Source of the DNA: Candidatus Iainarchaeum sp.
Lineage (GTDB): Archaea > Iainarchaeota > Iainarchaeia > Iainarchaeales > Iainarchaeaceae
DNA length: 34,016 bases
Reading direction: 5' to 3'
Assembly: GCA_016202305.1 (NCBI GenBank)
Contig: JACQPB010000033.1
Coordinates: 1-34,016, forward strand
In this document: positions 15,307 through 18,566 of the stretch, piece by piece
Numbering within the stretch: the first letter of the stretch is position 1
How the letters are laid out: every line of letters begins with the position of its first letter
Translations under genes and position numbers: made by a program
Notes under the pieces: generated by a model
Database searches by the model: none
What the model saw: the letters and a program-made list of their open reading frames with translations, nothing else
What the model was told of the DNA's origin: nothing

Positions 15307-15423
15307 GGACCGGTAGCTCAGCCAGGATAGTAGCGCTTCCCTCCTACTCATTTTTGAGTAGCAACTCTTTTAGAGCGATGAGGAGATAGGAAGAGGTCCT
15401 GGGTTCAAATCCCAGCCGGTCCG
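15307..15423 (+). tRNA. tRNA-Arg (anticodon CCU) with a 41-nt intron
   Basis: Exon 1 is 15307-15346 and exon 2 is 15388-15423. The acceptor GGACCGG pairs with CCGGTCC and the discriminator is G; the T-arm is CTGGG-TTCAAAT-CCCAG. The anticodon stem CTTCC/GGAAG closes a spliced loop CUCCUAA, giving anticodon CCU. A canonical bulge-helix-bulge is visible: stem CTTCC/GGAAG, central helix CTCC/GGAG, bulges TAC and ATA, then TCAT/ATGA. Cleavage after the second bulge base places the intron at the usual 37/38 position. No 3' CCA is encoded. The 3' exon is overlapped on the other strand by the endonuclease frame. Confidence 0.93.
15347..15387 (+). other. BHB-type tRNA intron
   Basis: A 41-nt intron bounded by the 3-nt bulges TAC (15345-15347) and ATA (15386-15388) around the 4-bp helix CTCC/GGAG. 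Part of it also pairs into an alternative perfect 7-bp hairpin with exon bases, CTACTCA/TGAGTAG (15344-15350/15355-15361), which would compete with the splicing structure. The stop codon of the minus-strand endonuclease gene (15370-15372) lies inside it. Confidence 0.85.
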
Positions 15424-16865
15424 TTTCAATAAACTTACCATTTTTTCGGCCCGAATAACTTTGTTTGGGTGTTTGAACCCTATTTCGTACAAAAATTTCA
15501 GGAGCATCCTCTTCTGGCGAATTCTCAGTTCATTGGTACTATAAACCGAATCGCTAGAAGGCGATTTTGCAAAGCGTTCAAAAATCTTCAGCGTCTCAAT
15601 TTCAAAAAGAACGAGCGAGTCTTTTATTTCTTGTATAAATCCTTTGTCTTTTAAAGTTACGTCAATGAATAATTGTTTTGCCTTTTCCGGGTTTTTTGGC
15701 AGGGTACCATCAGAGTCAAACAATCCCGGCAAATAAGCCCTTAACAACTCTTTTTCGGATTTTATTAATTCTGGGATCATTAGGTTCTTTTTCTCTCCGC
15801 GATTGATTCCAAAAACGTTGTGAACAAATGAGTTCAGCACAAGACTTTTTATCTCCAAGACTGGATGCGAGACAGTTGAAATTTTACTTGCGCACCAAAG
15901 CACATGGCCTTCAATTCCAAATAATTTTTTGGACAGAAAATTTATTTGTTTGATTTGTTCAATATACTCATCCGAAAAACAAATTTGCTTTTTGTCAGCA
16001 GTCAGACATCCGTCACCTTGCAAGTAGCCCAAAAAATAAGAAAGTTCAGTAGTAAGATGTTTCGGAAGACGCACTTTCTTGTGTTTTGCGGTGAATAACA
16101 ACTCACTTTTGCCATAAATTTTGTCTAGAATATTAGGATCAACATGTTTTTGAAAACCCTTGAGAAATTGTAATGACGAGTGAGGCTTTTCCATCAAATT
16201 ACGTTTGTAGTATGATGTCGAAACTCCTATCTGTTCTGCAGCCTCTCCGTAGCTCAAACCCGATTGTGAATGGCTTTCACGCAATAGCCCGGCAACTCCA
16301 CAAACCATCACGTTATCATCGAACAGCGGCAGGTAATTCGGCAATGGTTTGCTAAATGAATTCGCAATGGCAAACGCAGGATATTGAACTCCGGCAGGGT
16401 TTGATTCGGTTATAGGGCAATATTCCATCACTTTGCGCTTCTTGGCAGTTTTTGTCTTGTTATCCGATTCGTTGAATGTGAGTTTGACGATGTTTTTTAT
16501 ACGGGCCGCTTCCAAGTTTTTCAATCGTTTCATCTCCCTTATTTTTGCAAAATGAGCAGCCTTGTCTTGGATTTTACCCGATGCAGCAATCCCGCCTTTC
16601 CCCTGCCCCAATTAAGCGGGAGTTTCTTTACAATGGAACTTTCAAACTGCTTGGCTTCGGGGCAGAGAGAAACAACCTTTTCGAAAGTGGAATTCTTGAG
16701 TAGGTGTTTTCCGTTGCAGTATGACCTGAATGTTGATTTTGGGATTCCAAGTCGAGCTGAGAGCGAACGGCGTGTAAAACCAGGCATTGCTATGAGCCAC
16801 CTGAACAATTCCTCCTGCTTTCCGCCCTGGAACATGAGCCTGCTGTTTTCCACGTCCCCACCCAT
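15370..16865 (-). pseudogene. LAGLIDADG homing endonuclease with N-terminal HTH, frameshifted
   Basis: Two minus-strand frames together make one ~495-residue protein. The first (ATG 16865, TATAAAC ~22 nt upstream) encodes an HTH (FTRRSLSARLGIPKSTFRSY) and reaches LPLNWG. The second takes over near 16605 (QGKGGIAASGKIQDKAAHF) and includes another HTH-like stretch (YGEAAEQIGVSTSYYKR) and two LAGLIDADG motifs, LSYFLGYLQGDGCL and LRAYLPGLFDSDGTL. Joined at a G-run, they give the NWGQGKGG continuity I associate with HTH-LAGLIDADG proteins; one base appears to be missing. The last ~18 residues (TGWDLNPGPLPISSSL) are antisense to the tRNA-Arg 3' exon and intron. The gene is clearly more AT-rich than its neighbours, a sign of transfer. 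It is either a recent pseudogene, a sequencing error or a frameshift-expressed gene. Confidence 0.75.
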
Positions 16866-17018
16866 AAAACCCTCTTGCAGGCGTTTATATGGTTTTTGAC
16901 ACCTCATTGCCGGTGCGGAGGCACAGGGATTCATTTCGAACCCCTCTTCATGCCTTCCAGCAGTTGGGCAAATGTAAAGCCTCCACTGAAAGGGTTTCCT
17001 CTTTGGCTGACTTTTGTT

Positions 17019-17227
17019 TGCCAATGGTAACTCATTTCCTATCACCTCCAAGCGCGGAATAAGAGTTTTTTCCGGAGACGTCTTGCAGCCTTTGGAGGCA
17101 TTAAAACCTTTAGGCGGAGCGCAGCGGAGCCGACCCTCCGCAGAGGGGAAAGGTTTAAGCCGACAAAGGCTGAGTCGCAGGAAAAAACTCGCCGCGCTTG
17201 GACGGACGGAAATGACATTACACGGCA
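17019..17227. ncRNA. Very long imperfect hairpin, candidate structured RNA or palindromic element
   Basis: Nine successive complementary blocks pair in order across 209 nt. From the base they are TGCC/GGCA, GTAA/TTAC, CATTTCC/GGAAATG (17033/17208), CCAAGCGCGG/CCGCGCTTGG (17048/17192), AGTTTTTTCC/GGAAAAAACT (17064/17180), CAGCCTTTG/CAAAGGCTG (17086/17164), GGC/GCC, AAACCTTT/AAAGGTTT (17104/17149) and GCGGAG/CTCCGC (17114/17136), around a 16-nt apical loop. That is about 61 pairs with asymmetric internal loops. It lies in the 624-bp gene-free stretch between the endonuclease and ftsZ. I find none of the conserved cores of SRP RNA, RNase P RNA or 5S rRNA. It could be a new RNA, or a MITE-like element that arrived with the endonuclease. 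The strand is undetermined. Confidence 0.5.
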
Positions 17228-17302: not shown

Positions 17303-17420
17303 GACATATGCAGAATAGCGGCAAAAACAATGGAGCGCAGGCCGCGACTGGGTGTGGCTTCCAGCCCCGAAAAAAACCTTTTTCCCGCCACCAAAAGAGT
17401 TTATTAAGTAGGTTAACAGC

Positions 17421-17485
17421 ATATATAGCAGGTCCACATTGCTCATTTTGCGTTTATGAGAATAAAGTGGATTTCTTAGGGGTGA
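17421..17485 (+). promoter_or_regulatory. ftsZ promoter and ribosome binding site
   Basis: TATA box ATATATAG at 17421-17428, implying a start near 17450 and a leader of about 40 nt. A strong Shine-Dalgarno AGGGGTGA (17478-17485) ends four bases before the TTG start of ftsZ and decides that unusual start codon. This leadered arrangement differs from most genes in the window. Confidence 0.6.
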
Positions 17486-17489
17486 AAAC

Positions 17490-18566
17490 TTGAAGTCACT
17501 GGTTAGTACAGCAGTTCAGACAGGCGCGGGCCAGCAGGCCGCGTCAAAGGACACCGAGGAGTTCGCAGCACCGAAGATAATGGTAGTAGGGTGCGGGGGC
17601 GCCGGGTGCAACGCAATAAACAGGCTAAGCAAGATGAATATAGAGGGCGCAATGCTGGCCGCAATAAACACGGACAAGCAGCACCTCGCGATGGTCGGGG
17701 ACGACGTCACCAAGGTCCTCATAGGAAAATCGGTGACGAGGGGACTCGGCGCCGGCGGATACCCGGAGATAGGCGCAAAGGCCGCGGAAGTCAGCAAGAA
17801 CGAACTGACCCAGCTGCTTGACGGCGTCGACATGCTTTTCGTTTCCGCAGGAATGGGAGGCGGAACCGGAACAGGCTCTGCACCGATAGTGGCCCAGATA
17901 GCAAAGGAGCAGGGTGCAATAGTGGTTTCCATAGTCACATACCCCTTCTCTCTCGAGAGGGCAAGAATGATAAATGCCGAGTCGGGAATACAGAAGCTCA
18001 GCGAATCGTCCGACACTGTCGTCGTGATTGACAACAACAGGCTCGTTGAGCTCGTGCCGAACCTCCCGATACAGGACGCATTCAAGGTCGCGGACGAAGT
18101 CATAGCCAGGACAGTGCGCGGAATAACAGAAACAATAACACAGCCGTCACTCATCAACCTCGACTTCGCGGACATAAGGAGCGTCATGACAGGCAGGGGC
18201 CTTTCCCTGATAGCGGTCGGGGAAAGCAAGTCAGTGAACAAGGTGCAGGAGGCTGTCGAGGACACGCTCAACAACACCCTGCTCGACGTTGACATAGGCG
18301 GCGCTGCCGGATGCCTCATACACATCACGGGCGGGCCTGAGCTGACGCTCGGGGAGGCAAACGCGATAGGCGAAATGCTCACCGAGAGGATTGACGCGAA
18401 GGCACAGGTTATATGGGGAGCGAGGGTGGACAACACTTTCGAGAACAAAATCGAGATAATAGCGATTTTCACAGGAGTGAACTCGCCATACATCACGGGC
18501 AAGCAGAAGAACCCGCTCGCGCAGAAAACCTCGCGCGACAGGGAACTTGGCCTCAAGTACCTTTAA
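17490..18566 (+). CDS. ftsZ: Cell division GTPase FtsZ
   Basis: A tubulin-fold GTPase that polymerises into the division ring. 358 residues: nucleotide-binding VVGCGGAGCNAINRL (~32-46), INTDKQHLAM, tubulin signature GMGGGTGTGSAP (~121-132), ARMINAESGIQKL, and the T7-region residues NLDFADIRSVMTGRG. LDNNRL/PNLPI-like segments (IDNNRLVELVPNLPI) and GGPELTLGEA look closer to archaeal FtsZ2 than FtsZ1, a judgement from remembered family sequences. The C-terminus ends in a short linker and ELGLKYL, possibly the docking peptide for a membrane anchor such as SepF. TTG start with a strong Shine-Dalgarno. A terminator-like hairpin follows. Confidence 0.95.
   Translation: MKSLVSTAVQTGAGQQAASKDTEEFAAPKIMVVGCGGAGCNAINRLSKMNIEGAMLAAINTDKQHLAMVGDDVTKVLIGKSVTRGLGAGGYPEIGAKAAEVSKNELTQLLDGVDMLFVSAGMGGGTGTGSAPIVAQIAKEQGAIVVSIVTYPFSLERARMINAESGIQKLSESSDTVVVIDNNRLVELVPNLPIQDAFKVADEVIARTVRGITETITQPSLINLDFADIRSVMTGRGLSLIAVGESKSVNKVQEAVEDTLNNTLLDVDIGGAAGCLIHITGGPELTLGEANAIGEMLTERIDAKAQVIWGARVDNTFENKIEIIAIFTGVNSPYITGKQKNPLAQKTSRDRELGLKYL

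Follow-up and report, generated by a model that had tools for sequence, protein, structure and literature searches.

Upstream of ftsZ in Candidatus Iainarchaeum sp. (assembly GCA_016202305.1, contig JACQPB010000033.1) a long imperfect palindrome separates that gene from a gene for a LAGLIDADG endonuclease, and the question is whether such a structure works as RNA, as DNA, or as part of something mobile. The window analysed here is the whole stretch of 34,016 nucleotides. A sequence-only reading had described a 209-nt imperfect hairpin far beyond chance and had offered a new structured RNA, a cis leader upstream of ftsZ, or a MITE-like element travelling with the endonuclease. It overlooked that the element reads functionally on the minus strand, where a small open reading frame (ORF) has both its Shine-Dalgarno sequence and its start codon in the outer arm of the hairpin.

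The hairpin and its cassette

Folding of positions 17019-17227 gave -96.5 kcal/mol for the plus strand (shuffles -61.3 +/- 4.1, z -8.5) and -103.6 kcal/mol for the minus strand (shuffles -62.1 +/- 4.6, z -9.0), in both cases as a single nested rod whose stability was matched by none of 200 shuffles. The claim that the hairpin lies far beyond chance is thus borne out, and its coordinates proved correct, the core shared by the family being 17043-17205. A repeat search recovers two arm blocks, I1 (17063-17079/17174-17190) and I2 (17086-17104/17154-17172). Among the 4227 families of Rfam the window hairpin found no match even at E 1, and none of 20 other copies reached a gathering score, in agreement with the earlier remark that the conserved cores of SRP RNA, RNase P RNA and 5S rRNA are absent. 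The features are as follows.

17019-17227, minus: whole imperfect hairpin, the palindromic region upstream of the endonuclease cassette (folding z -8.5/-9.0)
17043-17205, minus: conserved family core, model positions 1-149 (covariance model, 100.9 bits; 90 aligned copies)
17043-17049, minus: Shine-Dalgarno sequence GGAGGTG, carried by the 3′ arm and base-paired to the 5′ arm (from sequence)
17101-17105, minus: TTTAA box in the 3′ arm, putative internal cassette promoter (invariance; enrichment upstream of tRNA genes)
17154-17158, plus: opposite-strand TTTAA in the 5′ arm, possible divergent promoter (same invariance)
16931-17035, minus: small ORF of 34 aa, MSYHWQTKVSQRGNPFSGGFTFAQLLEGMKRGSK, type A (family of 32, median dN/dS 0.50 outside the hairpin)
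16539-16934, minus: N-terminal HTH-like part of the endonuclease gene, its start overlapping the small ORF stop (ATGA)
15370-16611, minus: LAGLIDADG part of the same gene, with its C-terminal end antisense to the tRNA (Pfam LAGLIDADG_3)
15307-15423, plus: tRNA-Arg(CCT), interrupted by a 41-nt intron and sharing sequence with the C-terminal end of the endonuclease gene (ARAGORN with introns; Rfam RF00005)
17400-17407, plus: likely ftsZ promoter TTTATTAA, outside the hairpin (from sequence)
17490-18566, plus: ftsZ, a neighbour outside the element

The palindromic hairpin makes up the 5′ region of a cassette that continues with a small ORF and then, usually, a LAGLIDADG homing endonuclease. In the RNA orientation (window minus strand) the consensus 5′ side consists of TCACCTCC, GAATTTTTTC, GGAC, the inner arm, CGGCTTAAACCTTT and a variable apical loop, after which the 3′ side reads AAAGGRTTTAATGCCTCC, inner arm, GACGTCC, GAAAAAATTC, GGAGGTGA and then the start codon. 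Both the Shine-Dalgarno sequence and the start codon of the small ORF lie within the 3′ arm; GGAGG is present in 84 of 90 copies and the facing anti-Shine-Dalgarno CCTCC in 66 of 90, the window copy of the latter being degenerate. The TTAAA of the 5′ arm and the TTTAA of the 3′ arm are invariant in essentially all 90 copies and are surrounded by positions that vary with compensation. From TTTAA to the start codon the distance is about 65 nt (59-78 nt in 87/90 copies), and the orientation of the hairpin relative to the small ORF is always the same.

The small ORF occurs in nearly all copies, usually with 32-49 aa, and an ATGA overlap often joins its stop codon to the start codon that follows. 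Two families of it can be told apart, with median dN/dS outside the hairpin of 0.50 (GNPF-type) and 0.43 (W-type); a Pfam scan of two small-ORF examples yielded a match for neither. At five loci (L137, L145, L171, L186, L214) a second small ORF, hydrophobic and resembling a single membrane span, is situated between the first and the endonuclease.

The window endonuclease matches PF14528 (LAGLIDADG_3) at E 3.1e-12, with 47 bits over a cut-off of 22.5, and in the PDB its sequence matches fall on chains that bear the name V-ATPase subunit A, which agrees with an endonuclease insert of the intein type. The gene (15370-16934, minus) has no intact frame, its HTH and LAGLIDADG parts being in different frames, and it is for this reason classed as a member that is probably degraded; the frame change may reflect an inactive copy or a sequencing error. 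Relatives with an intact endonuclease frame exist, for example at L183.

A dispersed family of archaeal cassettes

A covariance model built from 19 copies located 92 hairpins, each distinct place counted once and strand-mirror matches discarded, and these are spread over 35 of 75 genomes from the order (Diapherotrites/Iainarchaeota), with up to 12 copies per genome; among 12 genomes from other families of the class it found none. BLAST revealed two more good copies in the source genome and, at E 1, hits in 43 of 53 relatives, many of which were weak. An exact core pattern searched over 84,980 species hit 28 contigs, mostly labelled Diapherotrites/Iainarchaeum or unnamed archaeon, and matched nothing in viral contigs or plasmids. 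The few hits in bins with bacterial labels (Falkowbacteria, Chloroflexi) look like mislabelled bins, several of these contigs being equal in length to contigs of genomes placed in this archaeal order (G038, G058, G060), and bacterial hosts were rejected on this ground. At four loci (L038, L045, L050, L055) only one hairpin arm was matched, and the long ORF neighbouring L045 resembles an intein end.

Two checks that the sequence-only reading had proposed gave positive answers: the same hairpin does occur elsewhere in the genome (5 copies in the source genome), and it does stand beside other LAGLIDADG genes, as 37 of 78 next long ORFs match LAGLIDADG_3. Of the remaining ORFs, many match HTH domains or models for inteins or endonuclease-bearing proteins; ArdC, DNA methylases and other cargo account for a few. 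Four copies (L222, L211, L202, L218) precede ArdC-like, DNA methylase or MazEF-like genes in place of an endonuclease.

MITE, ERIC and REP palindromes are dispersed, multi-copy, imperfect and intergenic, and MITEs in particular are non-coding, with the terminal inverted repeats of an autonomous transposon and a target-site duplication. The cassette hairpin is likewise a dispersed, multi-copy, imperfect palindrome, but each one heads an operon in the same orientation, and its arms show covariation and not decay. A MITE-like element travelling with the endonuclease was the nearest of the earlier guesses: the dispersal stood, as did the link to the endonuclease operon, before which the hairpin is always in one orientation. 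No transposase recurred among the scanned cassette genes, and neither a tyrosine recombinase nor a Y1 transposase was among the recurrent Pfam/NCBIfam matches of the 78 downstream ORFs. A literature search found no description of this element, the joint mention of Diapherotrites and homing endonucleases concerning CRISPR.

A possible expression switch and the nature of the pairing

A precedent exists in homing endonucleases of the T4 type (I-TevI, I-TevII, I-TevIII, segB and Aeh1 mobE), where a hairpin hides the ribosome binding site and a nested promoter lets the gene's own transcripts escape that hairpin (PMC2988022). The cassette hairpin is similarly predicted to sequester a Shine-Dalgarno sequence. 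It differs from the T4 type in that this sequence belongs to a small ORF coupled to the endonuclease, which the hairpin would control, in its archaeal host, in the nuclease family (LAGLIDADG as opposed to GIY-YIG/HNH), in the use of one conserved hairpin family of about 150-200 nt before unrelated endonucleases, and in an inner pairing that is not RNA-like.

The favoured reading, held with confidence about evenly balanced against doubt, is that the hairpin is the 5′ control region of a mobile cassette at tRNA-Arg(CCT) between cdsA and ftsZ, combining a translational lock, a nested promoter and homing. The hairpin would probably keep the cassette genes off until their own promoter fires. Read-through transcripts with both arms would fold and hide the Shine-Dalgarno sequence, so that translation of the small ORF, and of the endonuclease coupled to it, would fail, whereas transcripts started within the hairpin, from the 3′-arm TTTAA as the cassette's own TATA box, would lack the 5′ arm and leave the Shine-Dalgarno sequence more exposed. 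The endonuclease would then cut tRNA alleles without the cassette, and repair would copy the cassette in.

The predicted unpaired probability of the Shine-Dalgarno sequence in the full leader has a mean of 0.045 and a median of 0.000, and falls below 0.2 in 75 of 87 copies. With a transcript start 27 nt after TTTAA the predicted mean rises to 0.375, with 31 of the same copies below 0.2, and starts 24-30 nt after TTTAA give 0.32-0.45, that is, partly open. Conservation does not extend upstream of the hairpin when copies are compared, so the cassette's own promoter, if carried, must be inside the hairpin. The role of TTTAA as a TATA box is suggested by its enrichment 20-42 nt upstream of tRNA genes (24 of 68 such regions versus 5 of 68). 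Together with the invariance of TTTAA, the predicted hiding of the Shine-Dalgarno sequence and the T4 precedent, this enrichment supports a nested promoter plus translational lock.

Several observations speak against such a switch. A lock on the Shine-Dalgarno sequence needs the base helix only, not 52 covarying pairs; the truncated transcript is predicted to free that sequence only partly; the anti-Shine-Dalgarno is not intact in every copy, the degenerate window copy among them; and the gene behind the hairpin is in some copies of ArdC, methylase or MazEF-like type. The inner helices, moreover, appear not to be maintained as RNA helices, since they lack tolerance for G-U.

This last objection stems from the covariation analysis. 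RNAalifold on a plain MAFFT alignment retained 13 pairs only, because the 3′ arm was misaligned, and that alignment was replaced by a covariance-model alignment of 90 copies. On the latter, compensatory change was seen in 47 of 52 pairs and the covariation score was 0.350 versus 0.047-0.072 in slid controls, counts that lean towards structure because the alignment was fitted to it. RNA helices tolerate G-U but not A-C. The clean pairs of the hairpin contain 28 G-U and 30 A-C among 3050 Watson-Crick pairs, compared with 12 G-U and 0 A-C in the tRNA acceptor stems of the same loci and 240 G-U and 25 A-C in the SRP RNA of the same order (hairpin versus SRP RNA, Fisher 4e-12). Only the seven Shine-Dalgarno helix pairs, taken alone, lean to G-U (22:7), and this helix alone looks RNA-like.

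The lack of G-U preference indicates that the inner pairing is not maintained like an RNA helix. The inner complementarity would instead be kept as DNA, or its arms homogenised by template switching, or it would be needed by both strands. For the proposal of a new structured RNA, the structure proved to be conserved, with massive covariation, and the pairing of an RNA helix did not hold for the inner part; the equal rarity of G-U and A-C weakens the reading as an RNA rod and is why confidence in the favoured reading is moderate. The family is a clean example that strong covariation is not automatically RNA structure.

Folded DNA, either a single-stranded hairpin or a cruciform, could then be the functional form, serving as a recognition or processing signal for mobility, with the RNA hairpin as a by-product. 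Palindromes of this kind are known from attC sites and the hairpins of IS200/IS605, which are imperfect, have conserved bulges and show Watson-Crick complementarity without wobble. The cassette hairpin shares the imperfect palindrome, the conserved asymmetric bulges and the absence of wobble, and both its multi-copy mobile context and its compensatory changes with unbiased mismatches fit such a signal. It departs from attC and IS200/IS605 in that no recombinase or transposase was seen in association with it (genes for recombinases, HUH proteins or tyrosine recombinases are not recurrent in the cassette) and in being fixed at a Shine-Dalgarno sequence. A DNA signal would also not account for an orientation tied to the small ORF, for a Shine-Dalgarno sequence and start codon embedded in one arm, or for the RNA-like bias of the base helix, and folded DNA is considered unlikely, though a serious candidate.

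The likeness of the arms might also be mainly a product of mutation, namely template switching in a quasi-palindrome that encloses a divergent promoter pair, with little function in the pairing itself. Conserved asymmetric bulges and internal loops, present in all copies, should have been erased by such a process, and the bias of the Shine-Dalgarno helix does not fit it either. Its appeal lies in the unbiased mismatch types and in the double Watson-Crick changes, whose frequency roughly equals that of single changes even where copies are 88-93% alike (11 double and 17 single; 3 and 0 above 93%), although counts for close pairs are small. This explanation is judged improbable.

An inverted DNA operator for autorepression, with either the small protein or the endonuclease's HTH part as repressor, would be in keeping with the many endonucleases that have HTH domains, with arm sequences that vary together between cassettes, and with I-TevI, which represses itself by binding its own promoter (PMC2988022). 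It is rendered very unlikely by an apical spacing that varies from about 10 to 50 nt, by complementarity extending over all 52 pairs, and by the same hairpin on cassettes with non-HTH cargo.

tRNA genes and the empty site at ftsZ

The homing step of the favoured reading, cutting of tRNA alleles, bears on the position of the cassettes. The C-terminus of the window endonuclease is antisense to the 3′ half of tRNA-Arg(CCT). A complete tRNA was found in 37 of 90 loci, and the end of the endonuclease ORF lies inside or within 40 nt of a tRNA gene in about 30 of 78, in either orientation; at about 32 tRNAs per Mb, such coincidences are expected at well under 1. Four loci have a tRNA-Pro whose end lies 18-22 nt before the hairpin, and a T-arm motif occurs within 150 nt upstream in 5 of 89 copies versus 0 in a control stretch. 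BLAST detected tRNA similarity to the hairpin flank at one locus only (L199), and a general target-site duplication from the downstream tRNA was rejected for this reason. At three loci (L141, L159, L180) ARAGORN calls an intron-bearing tRNA-SeC(tca) beside the endonuclease, possibly misread introns of another tRNA.

T4 segB is located between tRNA genes (PMC2988022), and SegB cuts inside tRNA genes (PMC13096335). The cassette enzymes resemble SegB as free-standing endonucleases adjoining tRNA genes of many isotypes, and differ in nuclease family, in residing in cellular genomes, in a C-terminus that often runs into the tRNA gene, and in a split-tRNA case in AR10. Here (L072/L139) two tRNA halves, a 5′ one (GGGCCTATGG...) and a 3′ one (...TAGGCCCA) with matching acceptor strands, flank the cassette together with a complete tRNA-Val that bears an intron, so that a tRNA gene appears to have been split and replaced. 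The tRNA-Arg(CCT) that has a 41-nt intron in the window is intronless in six family members, and the intron may protect the tRNA from cutting.

A tentative extension, rather doubtful as a joint claim, is that the palindrome is the folded-DNA signal of undescribed tRNA-gene-invading elements, each with the hairpin, the small ORF, an exchangeable cargo such as the endonuclease and a linked tRNA, which would propagate among Iainarchaeota by cleaving tRNA genes and providing a tRNA in their place. Under the favoured switch, the hairpin would be the first described regulatory palindrome common to many unrelated archaeal homing endonucleases, as far as the literature found shows. It would tie together a lock on the Shine-Dalgarno sequence, a conserved small peptide and a docking site in tRNA genes, and would offer a testable case of how selfish nucleases stay silent in very small archaeal genomes.

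The empty site is seen in two relatives (G005, G002), in which cdsA, an intronless tRNA-Arg(CCT) and ftsZ are adjacent and the hairpin is absent. A role as cis leader or riboswitch of ftsZ, suggested by location only (about 260 nt upstream), is refuted by these empty sites, and the opposite orientation of the hairpin, its other copies without ftsZ and the promoter-like TTTATTAA between hairpin and gene leave it next to no credence. Similar TTTATTAA/TATTAATAA sequences stand upstream of ftsZ at L276 and L277. In G004 (L279), where no hairpin match was found at E 1, a similar LAGLIDADG endonuclease lies on the other side of tRNA-Arg(CCT), ending about 4 nt before the tRNA. In the window, a perfect 12-nt inverted repeat, GCAAAATGAGCA / TGCTCATTTTGC, is found at 16547-16558 and 17440-17451, about 880 nt apart, with the hairpin between its two halves.
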